Of a stretch of DNA of 33,939 bases, positions 236 to 21,094 are shown piece by piece. The notes below the pieces were generated by a model. The model was given only the letters and a program-made list of their open reading frames with translations, searched no databases and had not been told where the DNA came from. Location: NCBI RefSeq assembly GCF_900188425.1, contig NZ_FZON01000052.1, positions 1-33,939 of the forward strand, read 5' to 3'. The position numbers and the translations under genes were made by a program. Each line of letters opens with the position of its first letter. Position 1 is the first letter of the stretch. This DNA comes from Antarctobacter heliothermus (GTDB lineage: Bacteria; Pseudomonadota; Alphaproteobacteria; Rhodobacterales; Rhodobacteraceae).

Positions 236-347
236 CCCACACTGTGCTCCCCGATAGCCTCGGGAGCATCATCCACATCAGTGTAAGGGGGTCATTGTTG
301 GACGCCGATCACCCCGTTACGGGGTCAAAATTGCATGCCTGTTCACA
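1..347 (-). mobile_element. IS21-family insertion sequence, 5' end (continues beyond the window)
   Basis: The element runs off the left edge. Its outer end is placed at 347 because the minus strand reads TGTGAACAGG from there, fitting the TG...CA ends of IS21 elements, and because the reading frame of the interrupted host gene stops looking like its family exactly at this point. Two related 19-mers inside the end (minus strand, about 339-321 and 306-288), both beginning GGC and ending TGACCCC, look like the repeated transposase-binding sites found at IS21 termini. An 8-bp hairpin (246-254 with 260-267) lies just before istA. The other end and the target duplication are outside the window. Confidence 0.85.
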
Positions 348-1379
348 GTTCGACACTGCCAGCGCCAGCGCACGCCGGACGCGAACGTCCGAATAGGGTT
401 TCTGGCCGTCGATTTCCGCGTTCTGGTTGGTGCGGATCACCACCGTATTCGCGGTGATGGTTTCGGATTTATTCCACCCAATGCTGTCGAACAGCTCAAC
501 AAACTCTCCCAGCGATTCATACAACATGTCCACTTCGTCCGCTTCGGCAGCAGAGAAATGCGTCACTTGATCGGTGCCGAAATCGATGTATTCGATCCGG
601 TCCAGATAGGGCCCGCCATATACCTCGGTGCCCCACCATGTGTGATCCTCATTGCGGACCATGACCGATTTTACCCCGACCTCCAGATCAACCGGGACAA
701 ACGGGCCGGTGCCCTTGCGGTCGGCCATCGGGTCGCCGCTGAAATCCTGCGGCACAATCGCGGCGGGGTAGTCCGAGAAACCGGCTATCAGCGTGATGTC
801 CGGTGTGGGCAGCGTCAGCGTCACGGTCAGATCGTCGGTTGCGACAATGGCCCCCTCGATGGCCTGTTTGGTTTCAGGATCAATCAATGAGGCCATGCGC
901 GATGCCATCGAGTTACCCTCGACCGTCTGATCGCACCATCGGGTTATGTTGAAGGCGACATCGGCGGCGGTAAACGGTGTGCCGTCATTCCATGTGACAC
1001 CGGGACGGACGCTCAGGGTGTACTGCGTCGCGTCGGCGTTGACCTCCCAGCCTGCAAGCAACATCGGCTTGAAACTGCCGTCGCGCTGATATTCGACAAG
1101 GTATTCCAGCCAGCCGCGCGAAAAATTCGACATCTGGGGCCAGTCGTATGTGCGCGGGTCTTTGAGCGCGCGAACGTCCGACTGAATCCGCAGCGTGCCA
1201 CCCTGCGCGGGCTGGGCGCGGACCTCTGAGGGCATGGCAACGCCGATCAGGCCGTAGGCGGCGGCGGTCGTCAGCCCCAGTGACGTGGCGCGGGTCAGGA
1301 ACTCGCGGCGTGACAGCTCTCCACGGTCATGTTCGGCAGCAAGGGTTTGCGCGGCGGGGTGAAGGGCGGGAGTGTCCAT
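309..1379 (-). pseudogene. DppA/OppA-like solute-binding protein, truncated by the IS21 insertion
   Basis: Periplasmic binding protein of a peptide-type ABC transporter (SBP_bac_5 family). The start at 1379 is preceded by GGAG. Residues 23-28 are SRREFL, a twin-arginine signal, followed by a hydrophobic stretch and a likely cleavage site after VRA (about residue 55). The mature part shows family features such as GVTWNDGTPFTAADVAFN. The host frame is recognisable up to AVSN at position 348. The last 12 codons (positions 347 to 312) are IS21 sequence and end at a TGA. About 344 native residues remain where the family usually has 500 or more, so the C-terminal lobe is missing and the protein is probably non-functional. 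Its transporter partners are not in the window; they may lie beyond the IS. Confidence 0.88.
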
Positions 1380-1451
1380 GAGGGCTCCAATCGGCGTTTG
1401 TCAAAAGTCTGGCGCAAGATTGCACCGGAGGGAAAAGCGGCGTGACTGGCT

Positions 1452-1485
1452 TGAACCGGGGTTGAAAGCATGTCGGCCCGGTTCA
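1452..1485. promoter_or_regulatory. 9-bp perfect dyad upstream of the truncated binding-protein gene
   Basis: TGAACCGGG (1452-1460) and CCCGGTTCA (1477-1485) form perfect arms around 16 bases. The site lies 73 bases upstream of the binding-protein start and downstream of the scfR-like gene, both on the minus strand. There is no T-run after it on that strand, so an operator or an mRNA hairpin is more likely than an intrinsic terminator. Its function is unknown. Confidence 0.35.
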
Positions 1486-1556
1486 GACCTACTCTTTAAG
1501 GTAGATAGCGCAGAGGCCAGAGGGTCAACCCGCCGAAGCGGATCGCCGTGCCGGGC

Positions 1557-2960
1557 CTACAGGGCGTACCGGGTTGCGCCGCGGCGGTTTTCGTCCACCG
1601 GGTCGGACAGGACAACTGCCTGATGGGCGCGCTGGTCACAGTTGGCCCGAGGGCAGACACGGCAGTTGATGCCGATTTCTGTCGCACGGGCCTGCGCGAC
1701 ATTCAGATCTTCGGCGTAGCCGATGCTGTCCACATGGTCCATCGCACATCCCACGGCGACGGCCAGCCGCACGTCCTGACGATGGCGGGTAAAGCTGGGG
1801 CGATCCACGGTGCGGGCAAGAACGATGAATTGCGACTTGTCCGGCATCTCGACCACCTGCGGCAGGATCAGACCGGGGGTGCGGAAGCAGGCGTGGACCT
1901 CCAGCCGGGGGCAGGCACCGCCGTATTCGGCAAGGTGAAAGTCGGTCGCGTTGAACCGTTTGGTGACATTGCCGGCCTTGTCGATTCGCAAAAAGAACAG
2001 CGGCACGCCGCGCGCGCCGCTGCGTTGCAGCGTGGTCGCCCGGTGGCAGGCCTGTTCAAAGCTGACGCCAAATCGGGTGGCGAGATGGTCGAAATCATAC
2101 TTGCTGGCCAGAGCCTCGAACAGGAAACGGTCATAGGGCATCAGCACAGCGGCGGCGAAATAATTGGCCAGTTCCACCCGGCACCGCGCCCGCCCATTGG
2201 CGTCCGTCAGCCCACTGCGTCCCAGGATCTCGTCCAGCACGTCTTTTTGTTCCTGCAGGCCGGCCACATGCACCAGCTGGAACACCCGGTTGGGGTGATC
2301 CAGCGCCTCTGACAGCCGGACCTCGCGGCGGTCCTCATCGTATTCGCGCAAGGACTGCGGCATGTCGGCCACAGGCACAATGCGGACCCGCAGGTTCAGA
2401 CGGTGTTTCAGCCGCAGTTTCAAAGCCGGATAAATGTCGTCGGGGTCCACACTCTCGCCAAACCAAAACCCCTCTGCCGCCTCTTCCAGCGCCTCGAAGT
2501 GGTTGCGGTTGCTGCGGAAAAAGTTGTGTACCACGGCCTCGGAGGTCAGTGGCAAAACCCGGCTGCCGCCCTCTCCGGTGCTGGCCACGCTCATCAGTTG
2601 GTCATTTGTGGCCAGATAGGCGCGGTGCAGTTTCAAAAAGCAGCTGGCAAGGTCGGGACTGTGCGCCAGCGCCGCGCGCAACTGTGGCAGATCGGGGCGG
2701 CCGCTCTCGAACAGCGGGTCTTGCAGGACGGCGCGGATGTCCGCCAGACGCGCGGTGTCGTCGTCCTCGGCAATGTCGCGCCAGTCGACGCCATAGGCCT
2801 CAAACAGCTTGAGCAGGACAGGCACCGAGATGCTGCGTTCGTTCTTTTCCAGCAGGTTGACGTAAGAGGTCGAGATGCCAAGTGCCTTGGCCATCTGGAC
2901 CTGGGTCTGTCCGTGTTCGATGCGCAAGCGGCGCAGGCGAGGGCCGATAAAGGTTTTCAT
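1557..2960 (-). CDS. XRE-family short-chain acyl-CoA-type regulator (ScfR/RamB/PccR group)
   Basis: A 467-residue cytoplasmic regulator. Residues about 6-60 form an XRE helix-turn-helix (GQTQVQMAKALGISTSYVNL). The middle has the IrrE/ImmA-like region typical of this family. The C-terminus carries the family cysteine cluster CRVCPRANC (C433, C436, C441). Known relatives (RamB, MccR, PccR) control acetate, propionate/methylcitrate and propionyl-CoA carboxylase genes by sensing short-chain acyl-CoA. It is divergent from the malyl-CoA/mesaconyl-CoA operon across 141 bases that hold TTTACAAA boxes, so it probably regulates that operon and itself. Zinc-peptidase activity is unlikely because the expected HEXXH is seen only as LVHVAG, as is usual in this group. 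The effector is inferred from the family, not from the sequence. Confidence 0.85.
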   Translation of the reverse strand: MKTFIGPRLRRLRIEHGQTQVQMAKALGISTSYVNLLEKNERSISVPVLLKLFEAYGVDWRDIAEDDDTARLADIRAVLQDPLFESGRPDLPQLRAALAHSPDLASCFLKLHRAYLATNDQLMSVASTGEGGSRVLPLTSEAVVHNFFRSNRNHFEALEEAAEGFWFGESVDPDDIYPALKLRLKHRLNLRVRIVPVADMPQSLREYDEDRREVRLSEALDHPNRVFQLVHVAGLQEQKDVLDEILGRSGLTDANGRARCRVELANYFAAAVLMPYDRFLFEALASKYDFDHLATRFGVSFEQACHRATTLQRSGARGVPLFFLRIDKAGNVTKRFNATDFHLAEYGGACPRLEVHACFRTPGLILPQVVEMPDKSQFIVLARTVDRPSFTRHRQDVRLAVAVGCAMDHVDSIGYAEDLNVAQARATEIGINCRVCPRANCDQRAHQAVVLSDPVDENRRGATRYAL

Positions 2961-2982
2961 GGTATTTCACTGTATGCGAAAA

Positions 2983-3029
2983 TTTACAAATTTACAAATA
3001 TCAGATTTTGTAAAATCTCGCATTTACAG
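2983..3029. promoter_or_regulatory. TTTACAAA operator cluster between scfR-like gene and sgaA
   Basis: Two directly abutting TTTACAAA boxes (2983-2990 and 2991-2998) are followed by a dyad AGATTTT-GT-AAAATCT (3003-3018), which holds the same box on the other strand (3007-3014), and a partial copy TTTACAG (3023-3029). RamB/PccR-type regulators are known to bind short AT-rich TTTGCAAA-like boxes, so this is the likely binding region of the divergent regulator. The cluster sits 22-45 bases from the regulator start. Confidence 0.6.
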
Positions 3030-3101
3030 CAGGACGCGGGAGTGTTTCCAGTTCTTGAATGTATGGCGCATGTTCCCTGTCATCCGAAAGGGAGGATCGC
3101 C

Positions 3102-4298
3102 ATGCGCACCGGACACAGACATCTTTTCATTCCCGGCCCGACCAATGTGCCGGAGGCGGTGCGGCAGGCGATGAACGTTCCGCAGCAGGACCAGCGCGCC
3201 AGCGACTTCGGCCAGTTGACGCTTGGCCTGTTTTCCGACCTCAAGCGCGTGTTCAAGACCGGAACCGGCGAGGTCATGCTGTTCCCCGGGTCCGGCACCT
3301 CTGCTTGGGAGGCGGCGATCACCAACACGCTGAACCCGGGCGACAAGGTGCTGATGGCGCAGTATGGCCAGTTCTCGACGCTTTGGGTCAAGATGGCAGA
3401 GATGCTGGGGCTGGAACCCATCGTTGTCGATCTGCCCTGGGGGGCCAGCGCCCCGGTGGGAGAGTTCGAACGTATCCTTGGCCGCGACGTCCATGATGAG
3501 ATCAAGGCGGTTTTTGTCACCCATAACGAGACCGCCACCGGCGTTGTGTCCGACGTGGCCGCCGTGCGCCGCGCGTTGGACAGCACGTTTCATGATGCGC
3601 TATTGTTCGTCGATGGCGTGTCCTCGATCGGGTCGATGGATTTCCGCATGGACGACTGGGGTGTCGATTTGGCTGTCACCGGCAGCCAGAAGGGCATGAT
3701 GATGCCGGCGGGGCTGGGTATCCTTGGCGCCAGTCAAAGGGCGCTGGAGGCGTCGCAGACCGCCACCATGCGCCGCGCCTATTACGATTTCGCCGACATG
3801 CGCGCCATGAACGCGGACGGCTATTTCCCCTACACCCCGCCGACACCGTTGTTGCATGGTTTGCGCGCCGCGCTGGACCGGATGTTTGCCGAGGGGCTGG
3901 AGGCGATCTTTGCCCGCCACACTCGGCTGGCGGAAGGCATCCGGCGGGGGGTGCAGGCCTGGGGGCTGGATCTGGTGGCCGAGCATCACAGCTATTACTC
4001 GGACACCGTCAGCGCGATCCGCGTGCCGCAAGGCGTCGATGCGCGTGAGGTGTTGCGCTTCGCCTATGACGAGTTCAACGCGTCGTTTGGCTCTGGCCTC
4101 GGTCGTCTGAATGGCAAGGTATTCCGCATCGGACACCTGGGCGACTTCAACGAAGGCATGGCGCTGACGGCACTTGGCCTTGCGGAATTGTCGCTGATGC
4201 GGGCGGGCGCGCATGTCGTTCCCGGCTCTGGCACCGGGGCCGCGCAGGCCTGGTTTGCCGAGGGCGCGCCACAGACCTACGCAATCGCCGCCGAATAA
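3102..4298 (+). CDS. sgaA: Serine-glyoxylate aminotransferase (class V, PLP)
   Basis: Transfers the amino group of serine to glyoxylate, giving hydroxypyruvate and glycine. Class V aminotransferases of this type also use alanine or other donors. The 398-residue protein starts MRTGHRHLFIPGPTNVPEAV, as in SgaA proteins. The PLP lysine is K197 in VTGSQKGMMMPAGLG, and the cofactor aspartate lies in LLFVDGVSSIGS. The ATG at 3102 was chosen because GGAGG lies six bases before it; the upstream open frame has no ribosome site. It is the first gene of the malyl-CoA operon. In serine-cycle methylotrophs the homologue sits beside mtkAB and mclA. Here hprA, glyA, mtdA and ppc are absent, so its main job may be removal of glyoxylate released by the lyase. 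Confidence 0.87.
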   Translation: MRTGHRHLFIPGPTNVPEAVRQAMNVPQQDQRASDFGQLTLGLFSDLKRVFKTGTGEVMLFPGSGTSAWEAAITNTLNPGDKVLMAQYGQFSTLWVKMAEMLGLEPIVVDLPWGASAPVGEFERILGRDVHDEIKAVFVTHNETATGVVSDVAAVRRALDSTFHDALLFVDGVSSIGSMDFRMDDWGVDLAVTGSQKGMMMPAGLGILGASQRALEASQTATMRRAYYDFADMRAMNADGYFPYTPPTPLLHGLRAALDRMFAEGLEAIFARHTRLAEGIRRGVQAWGLDLVAEHHSYYSDTVSAIRVPQGVDAREVLRFAYDEFNASFGSGLGRLNGKVFRIGHLGDFNEGMALTALGLAELSLMRAGAHVVPGSGTGAAQAWFAEGAPQTYAIAAE

Positions 4299-4328
4299 CA
4301 CCTCTGAACCCCCCGGGCTTCCCGGACT

Positions 4329-4346
4329 GCGCCCCGCACTGGGCGC
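4329..4346 (+). promoter_or_regulatory. Intra-operon hairpin between sgaA and mcl
   Basis: GCGCCC (4329-4334) and GGGCGC (4341-4346) form a 6-bp stem with a six-base loop, followed within a few bases by a pyrimidine-rich run (CTCTTTCTTTG). It lies in the longest gap of the operon (84 bases). It may be a weak terminator or RNA-processing signal that sets different levels for sgaA and the downstream genes. No independent promoter was recognised. Confidence 0.4.
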
Positions 4347-4382
4347 GGGCACTCTTTCTTTGTCACATGAAAGGTTTCGACC

Positions 4383-5342
4383 ATGTCCCATACGCTTCAC
4401 CCCCTGCGCAAACAGCGCCTGCACCGTTCGGAACTGGCGGTGCCTGCCTCGAACCCTGGCATGGTCGAAAAGGCGGCCGACAGCGCCGCCGACTATGTCT
4501 TTCTTGATCTGGAGGACGCCGTTGCCCCGCCGGAAAAGGATCAGGCCCGCAAGAACGCCGTTGAACTGCTGAACGACATTGATTGGGCAGGCAAGGGCAA
4601 GACCGTTTCGGTGCGGATCAACGGTCTGGACACGCATTACATGTACCGCGACGTGGTCGACATCATGGAGCAGGCCGGCGATCGGATCGACACGATCCTT
4701 GTCCCCAAGGTGGGCGTGCCTGCGGACATCTACATGGTCGAGGCGATGATCAACCAGATCGAACAGGCCTGCGGTTTGACCCACCGCGTGGGCCTAGAGG
4801 CGCTGATTGAAACCGCGCTGGGCATGGCCAATGTCGAGGCAATCGCCCAGTTCGGCGGACGGCTGGAGGCGCTGCACTTTGGTGTCGCGGATTATGCGGC
4901 AAGCATGCGGGCGCGCACGGTCAACATTGGTGGGTTGAACCCGGACTATCCCGGTGACCAGTGGCACGCCTCGATCACGCGCATGGTCATCGCCTGCCGC
5001 GCTTACGGGCTCCGCGCCATCGACGGCCCCTTTGGCGATTTCAGTGACGGTCGGGGCTATGTCGCTGGGGCAAAGCGTGCAGCGGCGCTGGGCTGTGAGG
5101 GCAAATGGGCGATCCATCCGACACAGATCGCCATGGCCAACGACGTCTTCAGCCCGCCAGAGGCCGAAGTCACCAAGGCGCAGCGCATCATCGAGGAACT
5201 GAAAACGGCAGAGGCCGCGGGCAAGGGCGCGGCCAGCCTTGACGGCAAGATGATCGACGCGGCCAGCGAAAAGATGGCCCGCAATGTCATCGACATGGCG
5301 CAGGCCATCGCCGCCAAGAGCACCAACATCGCCGCCGAGTAA
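4383..5342 (+). CDS. mcl: Malyl-CoA lyase (CitE/HpcH family)
   Basis: Reversibly cleaves L-malyl-CoA into acetyl-CoA and glyoxylate. Homologues in ethylmalonyl-CoA-pathway bacteria also act on beta-methylmalyl-CoA, and those of the 3-hydroxypropionate bi-cycle act on citramalyl-CoA. The 319-residue protein has the magnesium/CoA motifs [12 protein letters not shown] (about residues 39-50), [36 protein letters not shown] and [13 protein letters not shown]. Its N-terminal half reads very like methylotroph MclA. By eye, the segment after [11 protein letters not shown] is shorter than in MclA or Rhodobacter Mcl1, so a surface loop appears to be missing. AAAGG lies upstream of the ATG. It is the key shared enzyme linking the mtkAB genes and the meh/mct genes of this operon. 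Substrate range cannot be told from sequence. Confidence 0.9.
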
Positions 5343-5365
5343 TCGACGTCACGGGAGGAGAAACC

Positions 5366-6541
5366 ATGGATATTCATGAACATCAGGCCAAGGAAATCCT
5401 GAAAGGCTTTGGCGTGCCGGTGCCGCGCGGCGGGCTGGCCTATTCGCCGGAACAGGCGGCCTACCGCGCCCGCGAACTGGGCGGTGCCGCCTGGGTCGTC
5501 AAGGCACAAATCCACTCCGGCGGGCGCGGCGAGGCGGGCGGTGTCAAGGTCTGCAAGAGTGAGGCCGAGGTGGCGGAGTTCGCGCGCGGTCTGCTGGGCA
5601 AGCAGCTTGTGACCAAGCAGACCGACGCCAATGGCAAAGGCGTCTATCGTCTATGGGTCGAAGAGGCGTCGGACATCGCGCAGGAACTCTACCTTGGCTT
5701 TGTGCTGGACCGAAAGTCAGAGCGGATCATGATCGTCGCCTCCGGCCACGGCGGGATGGAAATCGAGGATCTGGCCGAGGCAGACCCAGACAGTCTTGTG
5801 CGGATGGTGATCGATCCGGCTGTGGGGCTGGCTATGTATCAGGCGCGCGAACTGGGCTTTCGCCTTGGGTTGGAGGGCAAGCAGGTTGACCAGTTCTCGA
5901 CCTTCCTGCGCGCCTGCTATCGCGCCTACCGCGACCTTGACGCCATGATGGTCGAGATCAACCCGCTGGTGATCACCGGGGCAGGCGATCTGGTCGCGCT
6001 GGATGCCAAGATGTCCTTTGACACCAACGCGCTGTACAAACACCCCAGCGTTGCCGCCCTGCGTGACCCATCGCAGGAAGACCCGCGTGAGGCGACCGCC
6101 TTTGACAACGGGCTGGCCTATGTCGGCCTCGACGGTGACATCGGTTGCATCATCAACGGCGCAGGTCTGGCCATGGCGTCGATGGACATGATCCAGCTTG
6201 CCGGTGGCGCGCCTGCCAATTTCCTCGACATCGGCGGTGGCGCATCACCTGACCGGGTTTGTCAGGCTTTCCGCACGGTGCTGTCCGATCAAAACGTCAG
6301 CGTGATCCTTGTGAATATCTTCGCCGGGATCAACCGCTGCGACTGGATCGCGAAGGGGGTGGTGCAGGCCTACAAGGAGGTTGGCATCCAGATCCCGGTG
6401 GTGGTCCGCCTGAGCGGCACAAACGTCGAGGAGGGGCAAAAGATCATTCGCGACAGCGGTTTGCCCATCATCAGCGCCGACACGCTGGAAGAGGCGGCGC
6501 ACAAGGCGGTCGCCGCCCGCCCGCAATCCGCAGCAGCCTGA
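5366..6541 (+). CDS. mtkA: Malate-CoA ligase (malate thiokinase) beta subunit
   Basis: ATP-grasp subunit that, with the next gene, activates malate to malyl-CoA using ATP and CoA. The 391-residue protein begins [20 protein letters not shown] and has the ATP-grasp core ([19 protein letters not shown]), the metal site in [11 protein letters not shown], and the C-terminal ligase domain ([30 protein letters not shown]). Malate rather than succinate is preferred for two reasons: by-eye resemblance to methylotroph MtkA, including [11 protein letters not shown], and direct linkage to malyl-CoA lyase. Succinyl-CoA synthetase beta (SucC) is the alternative. A strong ribosome site (GGGAGGAG) precedes it 23 bases after mcl. 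Confidence 0.86.
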
Positions 6542-6553
6542 GGAGCACAAGAC

Positions 6554-7450
6554 ATGGCCATTCTGATTGATGAAAACACCAAGGTTGTTGTCCAGGGCCT
6601 GTCCGGGCGCATCGGACAGTTCCACGCGCAAGAGATGATCGAATACGGGACATGGATCGTCGCTGGGGTCACGCCGGGCAAAGGCGGCACTACGGTATTG
6701 AATCGCCCTGTTTTCAACACGGTGCGCGAAGCCGTTGAGGCAACTGGGGCAGAGGCCAGCCTTCTGTTTGTACCGCCGCCCTTTGCTGCGGATGCGATGA
6801 TGGAGGCGGCGGATGCGGGCATCAAGACGGCGGTCTGTGTGACCGACGGCATTCCGGCGCAGGACATGATGCGGGTGAAACGGTTTTTGCGCCGCTACCC
6901 GCGTGATCGAAAGATGCGGCTGATCGGGCCGAATTGCGCGGGCATCATCTCGCCAGGCAAGGGGTTCATGGGCATCATGCCACCCGCGATCTACATGCCG
7001 GGGCGCGTCGGCATCGTGGGTCGGTCCGGCACGTTGGGGTACGAGGCCGCCAGCCAGATGAAGGCGCTGGGCATCGGCATCTCATCTTCCATCGGCATTG
7101 GTGGCGATCCGGTCAACGGGTCCAGCTTCAAAGACATCTTGGAACTCTTTGAAAATGATCCGGAAACCGATGCGATCATGATGATCGGTGAGATCGGAGG
7201 TCCGCAAGAGGCAGAGGCCGCCGCCTATGTCCGCGACCACATGACCAAACCTGTGGCCGCCTATATCGCAGGTCTTGCAGCGCCCAAGGGGCGGCAGATG
7301 GGCCATGCGGGCGCAATCATCAGCGCCTTTGGCGAAAGCGCGCAAGAAAAGGTAGAGATCCTGTCCTCGGCCGGGATCATGGTTGCGCCGCACCCCTCGG
7401 ACATGGGGGCCACGATGGCCCGCGTTCTGGGCACAAAGGCAGCGGCATGA
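6554..7450 (+). CDS. mtkB: Malate-CoA ligase (malate thiokinase) alpha subunit
   Basis: The CoA-binding and phospho-histidine subunit partnering MtkA. The 298-residue protein has the N-terminal Rossmann CoA-binding domain (VVVQGLSGRIGQFHAQEM, about residues 11-28), LIGPNCAGIISPGK in the ligase domain, and the phosphorylated histidine in MGHAGAIISAFGES (H251). The chain length fits SucD/MtkB. It starts 12 bases after mtkA and its stop overlaps the next start by 4 bases, so the two subunits and the hydratase are translationally coupled. Succinyl-CoA synthetase alpha is the alternative; context favours malate. Confidence 0.86.
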   Translation: MAILIDENTKVVVQGLSGRIGQFHAQEMIEYGTWIVAGVTPGKGGTTVLNRPVFNTVREAVEATGAEASLLFVPPPFAADAMMEAADAGIKTAVCVTDGIPAQDMMRVKRFLRRYPRDRKMRLIGPNCAGIISPGKGFMGIMPPAIYMPGRVGIVGRSGTLGYEAASQMKALGIGISSSIGIGGDPVNGSSFKDILELFENDPETDAIMMIGEIGGPQEAEAAAYVRDHMTKPVAAYIAGLAAPKGRQMGHAGAIISAFGESAQEKVEILSSAGIMVAPHPSDMGATMARVLGTKAAA

Positions 7451-8316
7451 GTGCCGTCTCCCTGATGGAGCCCGACTACACCGACTGGATCGGGCGCACC
7501 GAGACCCGCGAGGGCGGTGTTACACCCAACCTCGCAGGGATGCTGGACGCGGCGGTCAGTCATGACCTGAGCCCGGTCCGTGATGTTCGGGCGGGCATGG
7601 TCCTGCCAAGTCTTTGGCATTGGGTCGCTTTCCCTGAGTTTGTTCCGATGAGTGAACTGGGCGATGACGGTCACCCCGCGCTGGGCGGCTTTCTGCCGCC
7701 TTTGCCGTTCCGTCGCCGGATGTGGGCGGGCGGTGACGTGCGGTTCAAGGGTGTGCTGCATGTCGGTGAGGCGCTGTCGCGCGTCTCGACCATTCGCGCG
7801 GTGACGCAAAAGGCGGGCAAGACGGGCCCGATGGCCTTTGTCACCGTGGACCATGTGACCACCGGCGAACAGGGCGGCGTGATCGAGGAAGAACAGAACA
7901 TCGTCTACCTCAACATCCCGCAGACCTTTCGGCCGCCACGGCAGGTGCCCGTGCCGGACCGTCTGGCCTGCGATGAGCGTGTTTCGATGAATGAGGTGCG
8001 GCTTTTTCGTTATTCAGCAGCAACTTACAATGCGCACCGCATACACTATGATTTGACGTATGCGCAGCAGGTCGAAAAGTACCCGGCGCTTGTGGTGCAT
8101 GGCCCGATGCAGGCGACCATGGCGATCGAGGCGGCAGAACGGCACACGGGACGCCCCCCTGCGCAGTTCACCTACCGTGTTGTGCATCCGATGTTTCACG
8201 ACAGCGACATGCGGTTGGTTGGCGCGCTGGACCCGGCGGGCGGCGCAATCGAGATCGGGACCGCCACGTTTGAGGACTACCTGGGATTGCAGGCAAGGAT
8301 GGAGTGGGCGACATGA
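7447..8316 (+). CDS. meh: HTD2-type acyl-CoA hydratase, probable mesaconyl-C4-CoA hydratase
   Basis: A double hot-dog (FAS1-like dehydratase plus MaoC-like) protein of 289 residues. The N-terminal half holds YTDWIGRTETREGGVTP, LPSLWHWVAFP and GGFLPPLPFRRRMWAGG, typical of the HTD2 group. The C-terminal half holds the hydratase-2 motif YNAHRIHYD (residues 194-202; H200 and nearby N195 probably catalytic) and LVVHGPMQATM. Close relatives are the 3-methylfumaryl-CoA (mesaconyl-C4-CoA) hydratase of the 3-hydroxypropionate bi-cycle, giving (S)-citramalyl-CoA, and itaconyl-CoA hydratase. The adjacent Mct-like transferase and Mcl support the first. It overlaps mtkB by 4 bases and the next gene by 4. 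Itaconate use remains the main alternative. Confidence 0.75.
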   Translation: MSAVSLMEPDYTDWIGRTETREGGVTPNLAGMLDAAVSHDLSPVRDVRAGMVLPSLWHWVAFPEFVPMSELGDDGHPALGGFLPPLPFRRRMWAGGDVRFKGVLHVGEALSRVSTIRAVTQKAGKTGPMAFVTVDHVTTGEQGGVIEEEQNIVYLNIPQTFRPPRQVPVPDRLACDERVSMNEVRLFRYSAATYNAHRIHYDLTYAQQVEKYPALVVHGPMQATMAIEAAERHTGRPPAQFTYRVVHPMFHDSDMRLVGALDPAGGAIEIGTATFEDYLGLQARMEWAT

Positions 8317-9551
8317 GCGGTGTTCTGGACGGGATGCGTGTGGTCGAAAGCTCGGCCTTTGTGGCGGTGCCTTTGGCGGGAATGACTCTGGCGCAGATGG
8401 GCGCGGACGTGATCAGGTTCGACCTGCCGCAGGGCGGACTGGATGCGAAAAGATGGCCTGTAACATCTTCAGGAAAAAGTCTTTTCTGGGACGGGATGAA
8501 CAAGGGGAAACGGTCGGTCGCGCTGGACGTCAAGACGGCGCGCGGGCGCGAGATCGCGCAGGAGATCATCTGCGCTGATGGAGAGGATGCGGGCCTGTTC
8601 ATCACCAATCTGGCGGCAAGGGGCTGGACCGATTACGAGACGCTCAGGGCACGGCGCGGCGACCTGTGCATGGTCAGCCTGCGGGGCGACCGGCACGGAC
8701 GCTCGGCGGTCGACTACACAGTGAACCCCTCATTGGGGTTTCCCATTGCGACCGGACATGAGGGCGCGACAGGGCCGGTGGCGCATGTCTTGCCGGCCTG
8801 GGACTGCATTGCCGGAAACATGGTTGTTTCGGGACTGCTTGCGGCTGAAAGAACCCGCCTTCGCAAGGGCTTGGGGCAGTTTGTTGATCTGACGCTGAAA
8901 GACGCCGCTGCCGCCATGCTGGGCAATCTGGGCATCATCGGAGAGGTTGCGGTCAACGGGGTCGATCGGGCGAAGTCGGGAAATGCGCTGTATGGCGCCT
9001 ATGGTCAGGATTTCATCTGCGCGGACGGGCGGCGGGTCATGGTGATAGCGCTGACGCCACGCCAGTGGATCAACCTGATCTCTGTCACCGGCACAACGCA
9101 GGATATGGGATACCTTGCTGCCCGGATGGGTGTGGATCTGGGACAGGAGGGCGTGCGCTGGACCTATCGGGCGGAAATCACCAAGGTTCTGGCGCCCTGG
9201 TTCGCCAAGCGCAAACTGTCTGATTTTGCGGAGAGTTTTGACAGGGGTGGCGTCACATGGTCGGTGTTTCGCAGCTTTGGTCAGGCGCTGCGCGAAGACC
9301 CCGACCTGTCGTCGGACAATCCGATCTTCGCCGAGGTCGATCACCCGGAAACCGGGCGATACCTGACGCCGGGGACTCCGTTTTCGTTTGCCGGACACGT
9401 CCGGGAAACACCGCGTCCCGCCCCGCGTCTGGGCCAGCACACCGAAGAGGTTCTGGCCGATGTGGCGGGCCTGCCGTCGGGGGCGATCAGCAAACTGATG
9501 GATGACGGGGTGGCGATGCAGCCGCGCGGCGATGTTCGCATGGCCTCATAA
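8313..9551 (+). CDS. mct: Family III (CaiB/BaiF) CoA-transferase, probable mesaconyl-CoA C1:C4 CoA transferase
   Basis: A 412-residue class III CoA-transferase. The ATG at 8313 overlaps the stop of the previous gene (ATGA). D164 in VLPAWDCIAGN sits where the family forms its aspartyl-CoA intermediate. Several stretches recall Chloroflexus Mct: GMRVVESSAFVAVPLAGMTL, GGLDAKRWPV, NKGKRS and NALYGAYGQDF. Mct moves CoA within mesaconate from C1 to C4 (2-methylfumaryl-CoA isomerase), supplying substrate for the hydratase encoded just upstream. It is the last gene of the operon. A succinyl-CoA:itaconate or mesaconate transferase is a possible alternative. The identification rests on remembered family sequence, not a search. 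Confidence 0.75.
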   Translation: MSGVLDGMRVVESSAFVAVPLAGMTLAQMGADVIRFDLPQGGLDAKRWPVTSSGKSLFWDGMNKGKRSVALDVKTARGREIAQEIICADGEDAGLFITNLAARGWTDYETLRARRGDLCMVSLRGDRHGRSAVDYTVNPSLGFPIATGHEGATGPVAHVLPAWDCIAGNMVVSGLLAAERTRLRKGLGQFVDLTLKDAAAAMLGNLGIIGEVAVNGVDRAKSGNALYGAYGQDFICADGRRVMVIALTPRQWINLISVTGTTQDMGYLAARMGVDLGQEGVRWTYRAEITKVLAPWFAKRKLSDFAESFDRGGVTWSVFRSFGQALREDPDLSSDNPIFAEVDHPETGRYLTPGTPFSFAGHVRETPRPAPRLGQHTEEVLADVAGLPSGAISKLMDDGVAMQPRGDVRMAS

Positions 9552-9630
9552 GCGGGCCTCTGAGGGCCGGGCACATCGCATGCACAGACCATGCACAACC
9601 GATGTACAGAAATGCGCGCCCCGCGTCCTG

Positions 9631-10527
9631 TCAGGCGCGGGCTGCGGCGGCCCGGCGAACCGTATCGGCAAGGCGTTGGAACTGGTCCGACAGGGGACTT
9701 GAGCGGCGCCAGACCATGCCAATGGTCCGGGCCGGTTCGGGATCGGAGAACCGGGCAACCGCCACCCGCGCCGAGGGCGTTTCTACCGGCACTGCCATTT
9801 CGGGGATCAGCGTCACCCCCAGCCCCGCGCCGACCATCTGCACCAGCGTCGTCAGGGATGAGCCATCCAGCCCGTCGCGCGGCGTTGTTGCGTTCAGCTT
9901 GCAAAAGCTGAGCGCCTGATCGCGAAAGCAATGCCCCTCTTCCAGCAGCAGCAGGCGCATCTTTTGCAGCGCCTCGCCGTCGGGAACCGGGTGATCGGTC
10001 TCGGCCTCTGGGCGGACAAAGACGAAGACCTCGTCAAACAGCGCCACTTCGTCCAGCCCGGGTTCGCCCACGGGCAGGGCGAGAATGGCGCAGTCAATCC
10101 GGCCCTCGTGCAATTCGCTTAGCAGGCGCGGGGTCATGGTTTCGCGGATGTGCAGGTCAAGACCCGCGTGGCTTTGCGCCAGTTCCGCGAACAGGGCGGG
10201 CAGCAGATAGGGGGCCACCGTCGGGATGACCCCCAGCCGCAACCGACCGACCAGATCGCCCTGCGCGGCGCGAGCCAGATCCTCCAGTTCATCCACCGCG
10301 CGCAGGATCTTGACCGCGCGTTCAAGACAGGCCTCGCCAAGGGCCGTCAGGCGCACCTGCCGCGCGCCGCGTTCGAACAGCGGCGCGCCAAGGTCTGCCT
10401 CCAGATCGCGGATTTGCACCGACAGGGCCGGCTGCGAGATGGAGCAGGCCGCCGCCGCGCGTCCGAAATGGCCATGCCGCGACAGAGCCTCAAAATACCT
10501 CAATTGGCGCAGGGTCAGATTCTTCAT
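9631..10527 (-). CDS. oxyR: OxyR, LysR-family peroxide sensor
   Basis: LysR-type activator of 298 residues with an N-terminal winged helix (LTLRQLRYFEALSRHGHFGR; SQPALSVQIRDLEADLG) and a periplasmic-binding-like sensor domain. The redox pair is C200 and C209 in EEGHCFRDQALSFC, matching the disulphide pair of known OxyR proteins, which join on contact with hydrogen peroxide. It is divergent from katG across about 200 bases, the common arrangement in alphaproteobacteria, so katG is its expected main target. It faces the mct gene tail to tail, with 79 bases between them. No other LysR function fits the cysteine motif as well. Confidence 0.93.
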   Translation of the reverse strand: MKNLTLRQLRYFEALSRHGHFGRAAAACSISQPALSVQIRDLEADLGAPLFERGARQVRLTALGEACLERAVKILRAVDELEDLARAAQGDLVGRLRLGVIPTVAPYLLPALFAELAQSHAGLDLHIRETMTPRLLSELHEGRIDCAILALPVGEPGLDEVALFDEVFVFVRPEAETDHPVPDGEALQKMRLLLLEEGHCFRDQALSFCKLNATTPRDGLDGSSLTTLVQMVGAGLGVTLIPEMAVPVETPSARVAVARFSDPEPARTIGMVWRRSSPLSDQFQRLADTVRRAAAARA

Positions 10528-12898
<2,371 letters not shown>

Positions 12899-13376: not shown

Positions 13377-14579
<1,203 letters not shown>

Positions 14580-14601
14580 TTTCACGAGCAGGGAGGCTCA
14601 G

Positions 14602-15579
14602 ATGTACGCACAGATGATAAAGTCGGAAGCGTCTCGGGAAGACCCCGAGAAGCTCGCCGCATTTCAGGCCCGCATCGACGCGGGTGACAAGATCGAGCCC
14701 AAGGACTGGATGCCGCTGGGATATCGCAAGACGCTGATCCGGCAGATCGGTCAGCACGCGCATTCCGAGATCGTCGGCCAATTGCCCGAAGGCAACTGGA
14801 TCACCCGCGCGCCCACGTTGGAGCGTAAGGCGATCTTGTTGGCCAAGGTGCAGGATGAGGCCGGGCATGGTCTGTACCTCTATTGCGCGGCAGAGACGCT
14901 GGGCGTGACCCGCGATGAACTGACGGAAATGCTGTTGGACGGGCGGATGAAATATTCGTCGATCTTCAACTATCCGACACTGACATGGGCCGACATGGGT
15001 GCGGTCGGCTGGCTGGTCGATGGCGCGGCCATCATGAACCAGGTGCCGTTGCAGCGGACGTCGTTCGGGCCGTACTCCCGCGCAATGATCCGCATCTGCA
15101 AGGAAGAGTCGTTCCACCAGCGGCAAGGCTACGACATCATGATGAAGATGGCCGCCGGCACGCCTGCGCAAAAGAAGATGGCGCAGGATGCGCTGAACCG
15201 CTTTTGGTATCCGTCGCTGATGATGTTCGGCCCCTCGGACAAGGAATCCGTGCATTCCGAACAGTCGATGGCCTGGAAGATCAAGATGAACACCAACGAT
15301 GAGCTGCGTCAGAAGTTCGTCGATCAGACCGTGCCGCAAGCGCACTATCTTGGCCTGACCGTACCGGACGAGCACCTGAAACTGGACGAAGAAACCGGCC
15401 ACTACGCGTTTTCGCAGCCCGATTGGTCTGAGTTCTTTGACGTGCTCAAGGGCAATGGCCCCTGCAACCGTGAGCGTCTGGCGGCCCGGAACAAGGCCTG
15501 GGACGATGGCAAATGGGTGCGTGACGGGCTGCTGGCCCATGCCGACAAGAAAGCCGCAAGAAAGGTGGCCGCAGAATGA
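14602..15579 (+). CDS. paaA: Phenylacetyl-CoA epoxidase catalytic subunit PaaA
   Basis: Diiron oxygenase subunit that adds one oxygen atom to the ring of phenylacetyl-CoA to give the 1,2-epoxide. The 325-residue ferritin-like protein keeps the two EXXH pairs: E86/H89 ([12 protein letters not shown]) and E169/H172 ([12 protein letters not shown]). E56 and D140 stand at spacings that fit the remaining ligands of E. coli PaaA. The ATG at 14602 follows GGGAGG by five bases; an open frame extends upstream into the thiolase gene but without a ribosome site. The stop overlaps the paaB start by 4 bases. Confidence 0.95.
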
Positions 15580-15911
15580 GCTCTCCGAACTCCGCATATC
15601 CCGACATTCCCGAAGCCACAAAACCAAAGCGCCATGAATGGCCGCTGTGGGAGGTGTTCATCCGCGGCCAGCACGGCATGAGCCATCGCCACGTTGGATC
15701 GCTGCACGCACCGGACGCCGAAATGGCGGTCAAGAACGCGCGCGACGTGTATACCCGTCGCAACGAAGGCGTCAGCATCTGGGTGGTCGAGGCGCGCCAT
15801 ATCGCGGCCTCGTCGCCGTCGGACAAGGGGCCGCTGTATGAGCCGTCCGAGAGCAAGGTCTATCGTCACCCGACCTTTTTCGACATTCCCGATGAAGTGG
15901 GGGCCATGTGA
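15576..15911 (+). CDS. paaB: Phenylacetyl-CoA epoxidase subunit PaaB
   Basis: Small structural subunit of 111 residues that bridges PaaAC dimers in the epoxidase. Recognised from [50 protein letters not shown] and the C-terminal [16 protein letters not shown], all typical of PaaB. It is slightly longer than the E. coli protein at the N-terminus. The start overlaps the paaA stop (ATGA), and the stop overlaps the paaC ATG, so the three are translationally coupled. Confidence 0.95.
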
Positions 15912-16672
15912 TGACCCACGAAGAGGCGTTTTTCGAATTCCTCTGCCGGATGGGGGACAATCCCCTGATCCTGGGCCACCGGGTCAGCGAATGGTGCGGT
16001 CTGGCACCGGTTCTGGAAGAGGACATTGCGCTGGCCAATACCGCGTTGGACCTGATCGGCCAGACGCAGATGTGGTTGGGCCTTGCCGGTGAGGTCGAGG
16101 GCGCTGGGCGCTCTGCCGATGATCTGGCGATGCTGCGCGACGTCTGGGATTTCCGCAACGTGTTGCTGGCGGAACAGCCGAACGGTGATTTCGGCCAGAC
16201 CATGATGCGGCAGTATCTGTTCGACCAGTTCCATGTGCTGCTGCTGCACAAGCTGGCAGCGTCTTCGGACGAACGTGTGGCCGCAATCGCCGCCAAGGCG
16301 GTCAAGGAGGTCGCCTATCACGTCGAACGGTCCCGTGACACGGTGATCGGGCTGGGCGATGGCACATCGGAAAGCCACCTGCGGATGCAGGCGGCGCTGG
16401 ATCTGCTCTGGCCCTATGTCGGTGAGATGTTCACCGATGATGCGGTCAGCACGCAGATGGCCGAGGCCGGGATTGCACCGGACCCGTCGACCCTGCGGGC
16501 CGATTGGGACGCCTTGGTGCAGGCCACGATGGCAGAGGCCACGCTGGTCATTCCCGACAGCCTGTTTGCCCATGCGGGCGGCAAGACGGGAACGCGGCAC
16601 ACCGAACATCTGGGCCATCTGTTGACGCAGATGCAGTGGTTGCAGCGCGCCTATCCCGGCGCGACCTGGTAG
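15911..16672 (+). CDS. paaC: Phenylacetyl-CoA epoxidase structural subunit PaaC
   Basis: Ferritin-like subunit that pairs with PaaA but has lost the catalytic diiron site. It is recognised from EEDIALANTALDLIGQTQMWL, the FLF-like QYLFDQFHVLLLHKL and KEVAYHVERSRDTVIGLGDGT. The start is taken as the ATG at 15911, which overlaps the paaB stop by one base; a GTG one codon earlier (15908) is possible and would add one residue. Length 253 residues is normal. The next gene begins 5 bases after its stop. Confidence 0.93.
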   Translation: MTHEEAFFEFLCRMGDNPLILGHRVSEWCGLAPVLEEDIALANTALDLIGQTQMWLGLAGEVEGAGRSADDLAMLRDVWDFRNVLLAEQPNGDFGQTMMRQYLFDQFHVLLLHKLAASSDERVAAIAAKAVKEVAYHVERSRDTVIGLGDGTSESHLRMQAALDLLWPYVGEMFTDDAVSTQMAEAGIAPDPSTLRADWDALVQATMAEATLVIPDSLFAHAGGKTGTRHTEHLGHLLTQMQWLQRAYPGATW

Positions 16673-16677
16673 ACGCC

Positions 16678-17136
16678 ATGACAGCGACAGTGGATCAGAT
16701 CTGGGGCTGGCTGGACGAGGTGCCGGACCCCGAGATCCCCGTGATCTCGGTCGTCGATCTGGGCATCGTGCGCGACGTCTCGCTGGAGGGCGATACCGTC
16801 ACGGTGGCGGTCACGCCGACCTATTCGGGCTGTCCCGCGACGCGGGTGATCTCGATGGATATCGAGACGGCGCTGCGGGATCGCGGGGTGGACAAGATCC
16901 GGATCGAAACCCGGATTGCGCCGCCCTGGACCACCGACTGGCTGTCCGACAAGGGCCGCGTCAAGCTGGAGGAGTACGGCATCGCGCCGCCGTCGCCCGC
17001 TGGTGGCCCGGACCACTGTCCGCGTTGCGGATCAAAGAATGTCACCCGTGTGAGCCAGTTCGGCTCTACCCCCTGCAAGGCGCATTGGCGGTGTAGCGAC
17101 TGTCTTGAGCCTTTCGATTATTTCAAATGCATCTGA
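16678..17136 (+). CDS. paaD: PaaD, MIP18-type maturation factor of the epoxidase
   Basis: A 152-residue protein with an N-terminal MIP18/DUF59 domain (VPDPEIPVISVVDLGIVRDV; the cysteine lies in YSGCPATRVISMD) and a C-terminal zinc-ribbon-like part with cysteines in CPRCGSKN, STPCKAHWRC and SDCLEPFDYFKCI. PaaD is needed for epoxidase function in vivo and is thought to help iron-sulphur assembly, probably of PaaE. The ATG at 16678 was chosen because it lies 5 bases after paaC and gives the standard N-terminus; a longer open frame upstream runs inside paaC. Confidence 0.93.
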   Translation: MTATVDQIWGWLDEVPDPEIPVISVVDLGIVRDVSLEGDTVTVAVTPTYSGCPATRVISMDIETALRDRGVDKIRIETRIAPPWTTDWLSDKGRVKLEEYGIAPPSPAGGPDHCPRCGSKNVTRVSQFGSTPCKAHWRCSDCLEPFDYFKCI

Positions 17137-17148
17137 GGAGGGTGGCCC

Positions 17149-18216
17149 ATGCCGCGCTTTCATGAGCTGACTGTGCGGGACGTCAAGAAGACGATCCGCG
17201 ACGCCGTTGTCGTGACGCTGGAGCCGAAAAATGGCGAGGCGTTTGATTTTATCCAGGGCCAGTACCTGACCTTTCGGCAAGAGATCGAGGGCGTGGAATT
17301 GCGCCGCTCTTATTCGATCTGCGCCGGGCGCGGTGAGGGGGTGCTGCAAGTGGGCATCAAGAAGGTCGATGGCGGTGCCTTTTCGACCTGGGCCAATGAG
17401 CGCTTGCAGCCGGGCATGGTGGTGCAGGCGATGGAACCGATGGGATCGTTTCACACGCCTCTGGATGCCGCCGCGCGGCGCAGCTACCTGGGGTTTGCCG
17501 GTGGGTCTGGGATCACGCCGGTGCTGTCGATCCTCAAGACCGTTCTGGCGACGGAACAGCAATCGGATTTCACGCTGGTCTATGCCAACCGGGGCGTGAA
17601 CACGATCATGTTCCGCGAGGAACTGGAGGATCTGAAAAACCTCTACATGGGTCGGCTGAACGTTATCCATGTGCTGGAATCCGACGCGCAGGACATCGAA
17701 CTGTTTCAGGGCCGGGTGGACGCGGAAAAATGCGCCGCGCTGTTCGACCACTGGATCGACGTGACCACGGTCGACACTGCGTTCATCTGCGGGCCGGAAC
17801 CGATGATGCTGGGCATTGCCAAGGCGCTGAAGGATCACGGTCTGGCCGATGCACAGATCAAATTTGAACTGTTCGCCAGCGCCCAACCCGGTCGGTTGGA
17901 GCGCAAGGCGCGCGACGTGGACGCCGGCACACAGGCCGCGCGGACACAGGCCAGCGTGACGCTGGACGGCACTGCGCGCAGCTTTGAGATGGATAAGGGG
18001 GTCTCGATCCTCGACGCCGCCTTGGAAAACGCGATGGACGCGCCCTATGCCTGCAAGGCCGGGGTCTGTTCGACCTGCAAATGCAAGGTGCTGGAAGGTG
18101 AGGTCGAGATGATCGCCAACCACGCGCTGGAGGATTACGAGGTGGAACGCGGCTACGTTCTGTCCTGCCAATCCTACCCGCTGACCGACCGTGTGGTCGT
18201 CGATTACGACCAGTAA
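17149..18216 (+). CDS. paaE: Phenylacetyl-CoA epoxidase reductase PaaE
   Basis: Electron-transfer subunit of 355 residues passing electrons from NADPH to PaaA. It has an N-terminal FAD-binding domain (RRSYSICAGRGEG), an NAD(P)-binding domain (GFAGGSGITPVLSILKT; CGPEPMM) and a C-terminal plant-type 2Fe-2S ferredoxin domain (CKAGVCSTCKCKVLEG with a later cysteine in VLSCQSYP). Domain order matches PaaE. GAGGAGGG precedes the ATG, 12 bases after paaD. Confidence 0.95.
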   Translation: MPRFHELTVRDVKKTIRDAVVVTLEPKNGEAFDFIQGQYLTFRQEIEGVELRRSYSICAGRGEGVLQVGIKKVDGGAFSTWANERLQPGMVVQAMEPMGSFHTPLDAAARRSYLGFAGGSGITPVLSILKTVLATEQQSDFTLVYANRGVNTIMFREELEDLKNLYMGRLNVIHVLESDAQDIELFQGRVDAEKCAALFDHWIDVTTVDTAFICGPEPMMLGIAKALKDHGLADAQIKFELFASAQPGRLERKARDVDAGTQAARTQASVTLDGTARSFEMDKGVSILDAALENAMDAPYACKAGVCSTCKCKVLEGEVEMIANHALEDYEVERGYVLSCQSYPLTDRVVVDYDQ

Positions 18217-18227
18217 GGGAGAGGGAC

Positions 18228-18989
18228 ATGACGGACGAGATGAACATTGCCGACTACCTGTCTCAGGGCGGCAAGCTGACAAACCCTGCCAATGTACCAC
18301 CGCGCTACCGCGCTGAGCTGATGAAGCTGATGAGCATCTTTGTGGACAGCGAATTGGCAGGGGCGGCGGGCTTTGCTGATGTGATCAATGCCGGTCCCGG
18401 CATCAAGGAACGCATCGCGGCGGCGCGGATCGTGCTGGAAAAAACCGATCACGCCGACAAGGTGCTGCGCCTGATGGGTGAATTTGGCGCCAATACCGAC
18501 CGCTATGTGGGTCACCACCCGTGGACAGACCGCCTGCCGCGCGACACCGCGCCGGGCAGCGCGCGGTCCACGCATGACATGCGGCTGTCGGTCTTCAACT
18601 ATCCGCTGGATGGCTGGGTTGATGCGGTGGTGATGAACCTGTGCATGGGGCACGCGGTGGCGGCGCAACTGGACGACATGATGCGCAGTTCCTACCAGCC
18701 GCTGGCCGAGGCGATCCGCGATGTCACCCCGCGTGAGACCCGGCACACCGAACTGGCCGAAGAAGGTCTGGCACGCCTGGCCGAACAGGGGCAGGGTGCG
18801 GCGATTGCCGACAGTCTGGCCTATTGGCGTCCGCGCGTTGCGGCGATCTTTGGCGATCCGTCCGCCGACCGTCTGGCGCAACTCAAAGGCTGGGGCCTGC
18901 GCCATGCCACGGCGTCCGAGATGCGGGATGCCTGGGAGACGCGGCTGGACGCGGCGTTGAACCGGCTGGGCCTGACACAGGCCGCCTGA
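18228..18989 (+). CDS. Extra PaaA/PaaC-like ferritin-fold protein in the paa operon
   Basis: A 253-residue protein of the phenylacetic acid catabolic (PaaA_PaaC) family. It is neither canonical PaaA nor PaaC, both of which are already present. The second EXXH is intact (E170/H173 in TPRETRHTELAEEG). By-eye alignment of the first one (LEKTDHADK, E71-H75) to PaaA E86/H89 puts K72 at the glutamate ligand, although H75 remains. A lysine at the metal site is reminiscent of non-catalytic PaaC. It may be a structural or alternative subunit of the epoxidase, or a separate enzyme. It sits 11 bases after paaE and 52 before paaZ, so it is expressed with the operon. The function is not known to me. Confidence 0.7.
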   Translation: MTDEMNIADYLSQGGKLTNPANVPPRYRAELMKLMSIFVDSELAGAAGFADVINAGPGIKERIAAARIVLEKTDHADKVLRLMGEFGANTDRYVGHHPWTDRLPRDTAPGSARSTHDMRLSVFNYPLDGWVDAVVMNLCMGHAVAAQLDDMMRSSYQPLAEAIRDVTPRETRHTELAEEGLARLAEQGQGAAIADSLAYWRPRVAAIFGDPSADRLAQLKGWGLRHATASEMRDAWETRLDAALNRLGLTQAA

Positions 18990-19041
18990 ACACACAGCAG
19001 ACAATGATGACCGGCCAAGGCTGGCAGCACAGGGGGGAAGG

Positions 19042-21078: not shown

Positions 21079-21094
21079 GCGCGGACGGAGGACG

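Follow-up and report, generated by a model that had tools for sequence, protein, structure and literature searches.

A six-gene operon of Antarctobacter heliothermus as a possible acyl-CoA-controlled exit from the ethylmalonyl-CoA pathway

The window analysed in this work, a stretch of 33,939 nucleotides from Antarctobacter heliothermus (contig C136, one of the 159 contigs of a 5.17-Mb genome, G000), contains six + strand genes at positions 3102-9551, in the order sgaA, mcl, mtkA, mtkB, meh and mct, and a divergent gene encoding a regulator of the ScfR family. Gene content and sequence comparison make it somewhat more likely than not, in our judgement, that the operon serves as an exit from the ethylmalonyl-CoA pathway (EMCP) under acyl-CoA control, which would convert mesaconyl-C1-CoA into acetyl-CoA and pyruvate, and glyoxylate into malate or glycine. 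This reading was favoured because the substrates and products of the operon are EMCP intermediates or compounds that follow directly from them, and also because the genome has a ccr gene, shows no isocitrate lyase by profile search and has a regulator from a family tied to acyl-CoA assimilation. The original prediction, made from the letters of the sequence, knew of no described pathway with this gene set; we likewise found no description among the matches listed from the open-licence literature.

All six open reading frames of that prediction were present, closely packed and in one direction, with gaps of 84 (sgaA/mcl), 23 (mcl/mtkA) and 12 bases (mtkA/mtkB), and the 4-base overlaps that it mentioned were two, mtkB/meh (7447-7450) and meh/mct, taking the start of mct at 8313. 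Genes were called by codon scoring; profile models were run on positions 309-12898 of the window and the remaining translations were read by eye. From sgaA to mct, the Pfam domains were a class-V aminotransferase, an HpcH/HpaI lyase, ATP-grasp plus CoA-ligase, CoA-binding plus CoA-ligase, FAS1_DH_region and CoA-transferase III. We scanned 141 loci, namely the window, 40 loci around Meh matches, 20 around MtkB matches and 80 further relatives, chosen as the best matches to the window proteins and not as a random sample, so that proportions among them are biased. The arrangement is not due to chance, mtkB being found directly before meh-mct in 26 of these loci, the window included.

For the last gene, mct (+ strand, open reading frame 8304-9551), the more probable start is the ATG at 8313 (8313-9551), which gives the 4-base overlap with the meh stop and is where both alignments with Mct structures begin. 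Among solved structures the product of mct best matched 7xkg (469 bits), presumably the Roseiflexus enzyme of PMC9196870, and 8apq (464 bits), the next family scoring 89 bits. The second structure, 8apq, is the Chloroflexus Mct (PMC9813914), and in the available parts of the two structural papers Asp165, Arg47, Tyr136 and Leu/Ile43 are tied to intramolecular transfer (PMC9813914, PMC9196870). The window protein has the equivalents D167, R50, Y138 and L46, that is, the residue set of the intramolecular enzyme; among 111 Mct sequences, which include some loci fetched twice, the Asp, Arg and Tyr were found in all 111, and the Leu position was occupied by L in 107 and by M in 4. The best-matching other transferase, 10uh, aligned with an Ala at the Arg47 place and an Asp at the Leu43 place. 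The transferase is Mct-like, as had been foreseen, apparently of the intramolecular type according to these residues. It was the only Mct-like protein of the source genome, the next match having 31% identity and 77 bits.

The product of meh (7447-8316, + strand) matched the PDB entries 8huc and 8khg with 169 and 166 bits; these entries are near-identical and one is named itaconyl-CoA hydratase. Because the itaconyl-CoA hydratase is described, in the part of PMC12290011 available, as also hydrating mesaconyl-C4-CoA, similarity alone cannot separate Meh from that enzyme. In a tree of hydratases the window protein was placed among Mct-linked homologues (mct is adjacent in rows L147, L154, L059, L210, L209 and L200, and the contig of L071 ends inside mct, L098), and 9 of the 10 Mct-less homologues, a part of those known, formed a separate supported clade without it; no characterised Chloroflexus Meh was among the rows. 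By its grouping with Mct-linked hydratases the window hydratase is Meh-like, which agrees with the predicted function. A plasmid search with Meh returned 208 records, all of them below 60% identity.

Adjacency suggests that Mct and Meh are a pair. The same alphaproteobacterial family was sampled with a single genome for each genus, 248 in all; Mct was found in 37 (E value of 1e-80 or better), 36 of them at 54% identity or more, and hand comparison located Meh directly upstream at 33 of the 37 Mct places of at least that identity, the others being G144, G083, G030 and G164. Mct was present above 50% identity in 112 of the 141 scanned loci, with Meh adjacent in 105. Moreover, in four loci (L177; L178, from a Loktanella metagenome-assembled genome; L184, from HTCC2083; and L188) meh-mct is followed by a CitE/Ccl-like lyase of 267-275 amino acids, whose best NCBIfam model was RipC/Ccl (157-175 bits, under the cut-off of 375); a lyase at this place fits citramalyl-CoA as the Meh product. 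In loci that have no lyase gene of this kind, an Mcl could carry out the cleavage. As a side observation, the mct-like gene of Methylobacterium nonmethylotrophicum (L222, 10001-11218) has no adjacent meh.

The four genes upstream of meh would handle malyl-CoA and glyoxylate. sgaA (3102-4298, + strand) encodes a class-V glyoxylate aminotransferase, according to Pfam, NCBIfam and its tree position, which may use serine, aspartate or another amino donor. BhcA was its best NCBIfam model (NF045640, 543.6 bits) and was rejected as an identity, because the cut-off of 650 was missed and the protein lies in a separate clade: the 36 proteins of sgaA-mcl-mtkAB clusters formed one clade (support 98/99), BhcA and the L137 protein formed another, and the SgaA of Methylobacterium belonged to neither. 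The name SgaA is what we infer from these comparisons. mcl (4383-5342, + strand) encodes a malyl-CoA/beta-methylmalyl-CoA lyase-like protein and possible citramalyl-CoA lyase, which among solved structures best matched 5ugr (394 bits), followed by the R. sphaeroides Mcl 4l9y (306 bits) and by 4l7z/6kin (170 bits), 4l7z being presumably the Chloroflexus enzyme. In a quick tree with long branches among distant paralogues, the window Mcl formed its own clade, apart from Mcl1-like and serine-cycle-type Mcl. It had been proposed that one lyase would serve both the malyl-CoA and the citramalyl-CoA ends, and this gains support because the R. sphaeroides Mcl is reported to form citramalyl-CoA reversibly (PMC3832036, seen in part). 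mtkA (5366-6541, + strand) scored 679.6 bits with PRK14046, the model of the malate-CoA ligase beta subunit, over its cut-off of 604; mtkB (6554-7450, + strand) passed Pfam and NCBIfam models of the succinate-CoA ligase alpha subunit only, no malate-specific alpha model being matched, and is called the malate-CoA ligase alpha subunit by its pairing with mtkA.

In the proposed route, Mct would move CoA from C1 to C4, converting mesaconyl-C1-CoA into mesaconyl-C4-CoA, Meh would hydrate the latter to (S)-citramalyl-CoA, and Mcl, or another lyase of the Mcl/CitE type, would cleave this product into acetyl-CoA and pyruvate. Together with the upper EMCP, in which two acetyl-CoA and CO2 give mesaconyl-CoA, the carbon sum of the branch would be acetyl-CoA plus CO2 to pyruvate, and the computed carbon balance closes for each proposed step. 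The normal EMCP cleavage would release what the remaining genes of the operon handle: Mcl and MtkAB would link glyoxylate plus acetyl-CoA, through malyl-CoA, reversibly to malate, gaining or consuming ATP according to the direction, and SgaA would interconvert glyoxylate and glycine. During acetate-like growth the six genes may thus turn an EMCP intermediate into pyruvate, malate and glycine. A citramalate cycle in the reverse direction, from pyruvate and acetyl-CoA to glyoxylate and propionyl-CoA, was held unlikely, given that citramalyl-CoA synthesis was observed with a large excess of pyruvate (PMC3832036, in part).

The source organism can probably make mesaconyl-C1-CoA, because its genome has ccr, an mch-like gene and two further Mcl homologues. 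The ccr gene (crotonyl-CoA carboxylase/reductase) lies on C73 and scored 613.4 bits against a cut-off of 378.55; the genome check that had been recommended gave, for mch, a candidate gene. Besides the window protein, the genome encodes two homologues of Mcl. The one on C106 is Mcl1-like (48%); the one on C51 is Mcl2-like (36%), and its gene lies near sucCD-like genes and the mch-like gene, of 342 amino acids. The profile search of the genome for isocitrate lyase gave no more than a match of 60 bits over about 100 residues; its absence discriminates little, because the enzyme is rare in the family (9 of the 248 genomes above roughly 100 bits, one of them over the cut-off). A complete bhcABCD cluster with bhcR, all over their NCBIfam cut-offs, occupies 4829-10376 of L086 (G000:C68), with a BhcA of its own at 751.3 bits, and the source genome therefore has several glyoxylate outlets.

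Control by acyl-CoA is suggested by two features that had gone unmentioned in the predicted gene inventory, which otherwise held for the six genes: the ScfR regulator and an element upstream of sgaA. The regulator gene (1557-2960, - strand) is divergent from the operon, its start codon lying 141 bases from that of sgaA, and encodes a RamB/PccR-like protein with 190 bits on Pfam ScfRs (PF09856, short-chain fatty acyl-CoA regulator; cut-off 24) and 352.4 bits on NCBIfam RamB (NF038139), under the cut-off of 700. Alignment of 28 intergenic regions showed a conserved 64-bp element, a putative operator/promoter (2976-3039, + strand), with the consensus TTtACAAttTtACAA...TTGTAAA.TcTCGCaTTtACAGCAGgACCCG, which without gaps consists of two TTTACAA-like boxes, an inverted TTGTAAA and then TCGCATTTACAGCAGGACCCG. 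Of 33 eligible regions, 28 served to train the model and five were dropped because they had no anchor or were not of full length; two of less than 100 bases were left unused. It gave 57-74 bits upstream of meh in the three held-out loci in which the regulator faces meh-mct (3/3); some of the random controls fell on the element itself (in L216 and in full-operon loci), which contaminates their maxima. A shorter version of the pattern, with a tolerance of three mismatches, was found exactly once in each of 12 chosen genomes (12/12), and by coordinates each occurrence was the region upstream of the cluster. None of the 38 intergenic regions contained the Corynebacterium-type motif TTTGCAAA.

Because the element occurs once per genome, at the cluster, and is missing from stand-alone meh-mct pairs, the regulator seems to serve this site alone, and the stand-alone pairs would not be under it. 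RamB of Paracoccus denitrificans, of the same family, is described in the available part of PMC10370305 as divergent from ms-icl, requiring two upstream boxes, and as binding and responding to CoA esters of the EMCP, most strongly beta-methylmalyl-CoA. By analogy, we infer that the window regulator reads an EMCP intermediate; in our proposal, this dedicated ScfR regulator would sense a short-chain acyl-CoA and act through the element before sgaA. It is probably not PccR, because a second ScfR of the genome, on C71 and 38% identical, is divergent from genes that read by eye as pccB and pccA.

The operon was found complete or in parts in related bacteria. Among the 105 loci with meh-mct, mtkB precedes meh in 26, the regulator faces meh in 3 (L159, L163 and L216), the contig ends in 17 and the pair stands alone in 59, several of the stand-alone pairs whose flanks were read lying, by eye, beside ribosomal, tuf or other housekeeping genes. 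In the 26 full operons the regulator was seen in 24 (L155 and L175, without it, are both cut by contig ends), sgaA above 50% in 22, mcl in 24, mtkA in 25 and mtkB in 26; in the Roseicyclus operons L147 and L150 the aminotransferase at the sgaA place is only 37-43% identical to that of the window. Carriers include Mameliella alba, Maliponia aquimaris, Sagittula salina, Roseicyclus sp., Roseibaca ekhonensis and Roseibacterium persicicum. Conversely, sgaA-mcl-mtkAB clusters without adjacent meh-mct were found at L119, L121-L131, L240 and L241, with no sgaA seen in L127 and L128 and no regulator in L129. Cluster and meh-mct are thus each found apart, implying that neither needs the other at the same place. 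Separately, an mcl1-like gene (87-88% to that of the source genome) was noticed a few kb from the regulator-sgaA-mcl-mtkAB cluster in L122 and L240, hinting at an ancestral shared neighbourhood.

In a quick tree of concatenated Meh and Mct sequences (98 rows after removal of near-repeats) most full operons came together, and L037, L067 and L071 were found among stand-alone pairs, next to L216, in a group of four with full support (100 in the Shimodaira-Hasegawa-like approximate likelihood ratio test). A tree with all 26 full operons in a single clade was rejected (approximately unbiased test, p 9.9e-13), suggesting that meh-mct was either added to the cluster repeatedly or exchanged at the same site; alternatively, a single ancient operon may have broken up many times. 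L159 and L163 nest near the full operons and may have lost the middle genes. Both modules also co-occur, even when unlinked: Mct was present in 15 of the 21 genomes with a sgaA/regulator-type cluster and in 22 of the 227 others (Fisher p 7e-10), and after setting aside the nine physically joined cases in 6 of 12 cluster genomes as against 22 of 227 (p 9e-4), kinship being ignored in both tests. The list of 21 was compiled by hand and includes G144 and G207 (no regulator seen) and G021 and G030 (no sgaA seen); it excludes G209 and G194 (similar mcl-mtkAB, with no regulator or sgaA in the stretch), G008 and G195 (short stretches), G028 (a fragment) and G083 (sgaA and mcl, but a 71% mtkB and Mct elsewhere). 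As to Mct, a 45% match in G068 was not counted and a truncated gene in G180 was.

Several results weigh against the proposed EMCP exit. The element was found in none of the 59 regions upstream of stand-alone meh (0/59, all below -24 bits), which implies that the mesaconyl branch does not depend on the ScfR regulator, and the ligand of the regulator was taken from a homologue with different target genes. Mct scored 490.5 bits on TIGR04253 (2-methylfumaryl-CoA isomerase), under the equivalog cut-off of 725, and was for this reason named Mct-like and not assigned to the equivalog; the mch-like gene was likewise under the cut-offs of its best models, RipB (85 bits) and the haloarchaeal 2-methylfumaryl-CoA hydratase (49 bits). 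No significant association between Mct and ccr was found in the sample, ccr being present in 35 of the 36 Mct genomes (at least 54% identity) and in 230 of all 248 (Fisher p 0.48). Exceptions also exist: L045, with Mct, branches beside the Mct-less hydratase clade and the Mct-less L035 falls among the Mct-linked ones, 7 of the 112 loci have Mct without adjacent Meh, and the clusters L123 and L130 have no mcl. One of these seven is the operon version L120 (G144, 6481-11930), where mct directly follows mtkB and both meh and the regulator are missing. Finally, SgaA, Mcl and MtkAB could sensibly run the other way round as well.

That direction is the one taken in a second half of the 3-hydroxypropionate bi-cycle used for co-assimilation, in which MtkAB and Mcl would split malate into acetyl-CoA and glyoxylate, and glyoxylate with propionyl-CoA would pass through methylmalyl-CoA (Mcl) and mesaconyl-C1-CoA (Mch) and then, by Mct, Meh and Mcl, to pyruvate and acetyl-CoA. 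We regard this reading, already suggested in the original prediction, as a doubtful but serious alternative. The genome has genes for all the steps, the mch-like one included, MtkA exceeds the malate-CoA ligase cut-off, cluster and Mct co-occur, and comparable partial bi-cycles are reported from symbionts (PMC6593406, in part); however, 6 of the 21 cluster genomes have no Mct, and no mtkB lies beside meh-mct at 59 of the 105 pair loci. Co-assimilation uses the same enzymes as the EMCP exit, with MtkAB running towards malyl-CoA, and sequence cannot decide the direction. It is improbable that the two modules merely share a promoter, with mcl-mtkAB-sgaA making malate (and ATP) or glycine from EMCP glyoxylate and meh-mct having an unrelated duty: both occur alone, and stand-alone meh-mct has no element, but the 26 loci in which the modules are joined are not monophyletic, and the modules co-occur even when unlinked.

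Degradation of mesaconate, itaconate or methylsuccinate, the first of which with itaconate had been named as the main alternative, was less supported than that and seems very improbable. Meh does belong to the superfamily of the itaconyl-CoA hydratase with its activity on mesaconyl-C4-CoA (PMC12290011); against this, Mct has the equivalents of Arg47, Leu43 and Tyr136 of an intramolecular enzyme that, in the available part of PMC9813914, is poor with free acids and barely uses free mesaconate, most Mct-less hydratase homologues form the other clade, and there is neither a transporter nor an intermolecular-type CoA-transferase among the six genes. A part in the serine cycle for C1 growth is equally hard to credit. 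sgaA, mcl and mtkAB are serine-cycle genes, and in Methylobacterium (L239) their neighbours include hprA-like and ppc-like genes, whereas no hprA-, gck- or ppc-like gene was seen beside the window operon with the profile models or, outside their range, by eye. The family has another cluster type (L135-L138, with mtkB at 70-72%, mtkA at 64-66% and Mcl at 61-62%), of which L138 also has genes that resemble gck, hprA and ppc by their best NCBIfam models, each scoring under the cut-off, and the window Mcl lies in a separate clade.

A wider proposal can be advanced tentatively, and it may or may not hold: aerobic EMCP bacteria would own a natural shunt from acetyl-CoA and CO2 to pyruvate via mesaconyl-CoA that needs no pyruvate synthase, isocitrate lyase or malic enzyme, and that in several genera forms one operon with malyl-CoA and glycine exits and a dedicated acyl-CoA sensor, built or exchanged more than once. 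If the EMCP exit is accepted, cells grown on acetate would make C3 compounds from acetyl-CoA and CO2 without a detour, and a convenient way into their study would be the regulator with its element. The enzymes could also be used in building synthetic pathways of CO2 fixation. In the available part of PMC6593406 the bi-cycle enzymes for C5 compounds are called uncommon, with a disjunct distribution; Mct-like genes in 37 of 248 genera, paired with Meh at 33 of 37 places, suggest that in this ecologically large group the branch occurs commonly.

Downstream of mct, an OxyR-like regulator gene (under its model cut-off) is divergent from katG, a catalase-peroxidase above cut-off (9631-12898). The pair also lies 3' of mct in the closest relatives, L143-L146, and it was rejected as part of the operon because among the scanned loci it follows mct in these only. 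Further on, the translations of 13377-21865 (+ strand), judged by eye, look like those of a cluster for phenylacetate degradation (paa), with thiolase, PaaA/B/C/D/E-like, PaaZ-like and PaaX-like proteins.

Among known systems, the C5 part of the 3-hydroxypropionate bi-cycle of Chloroflexus aurantiacus has the same Mct-, Meh- and Mcl-like enzymes, taking mesaconyl-C1-CoA to acetyl-CoA and pyruvate, a conversion that here is suggested by the genes, and partial forms are reported in Kentron, Thiosymbion, Accumulibacter and Riegeria (PMC6593406, in part). In contrast to the bi-cycle, the window set adjoins a malate thiokinase and an aminotransferase and faces a ScfR regulator, the genome has ccr, and the window Mcl is closer to 5ugr and to the R. 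sphaeroides 4l9y than to 4l7z. The RamB-ms-icl system of P. denitrificans (PMC10370305, in part) resembles the window in having a ScfR regulator divergent from an acetyl-CoA-assimilation operon, with boxes upstream, but its target genes differ, the Antarctobacter genome has no isocitrate lyase by profile and the window regulator is under the RamB cut-off. Related hydratase and CitE-like lyase families are found in the itaconate/methylsuccinate cluster ict-ich-ccl (PMC12290011, in part), from which the window differs in its transferase with intramolecular Mct-type residues. The serine-cycle clusters of Methylobacterium (L239) and of the L138 type share mtkA, mtkB and mcl with the window, and L239 and L137 also sgaA, whereas no hprA-, ppc- or gck-like gene was seen beside the window operon, and its Mcl and SgaA belong to separate clades.

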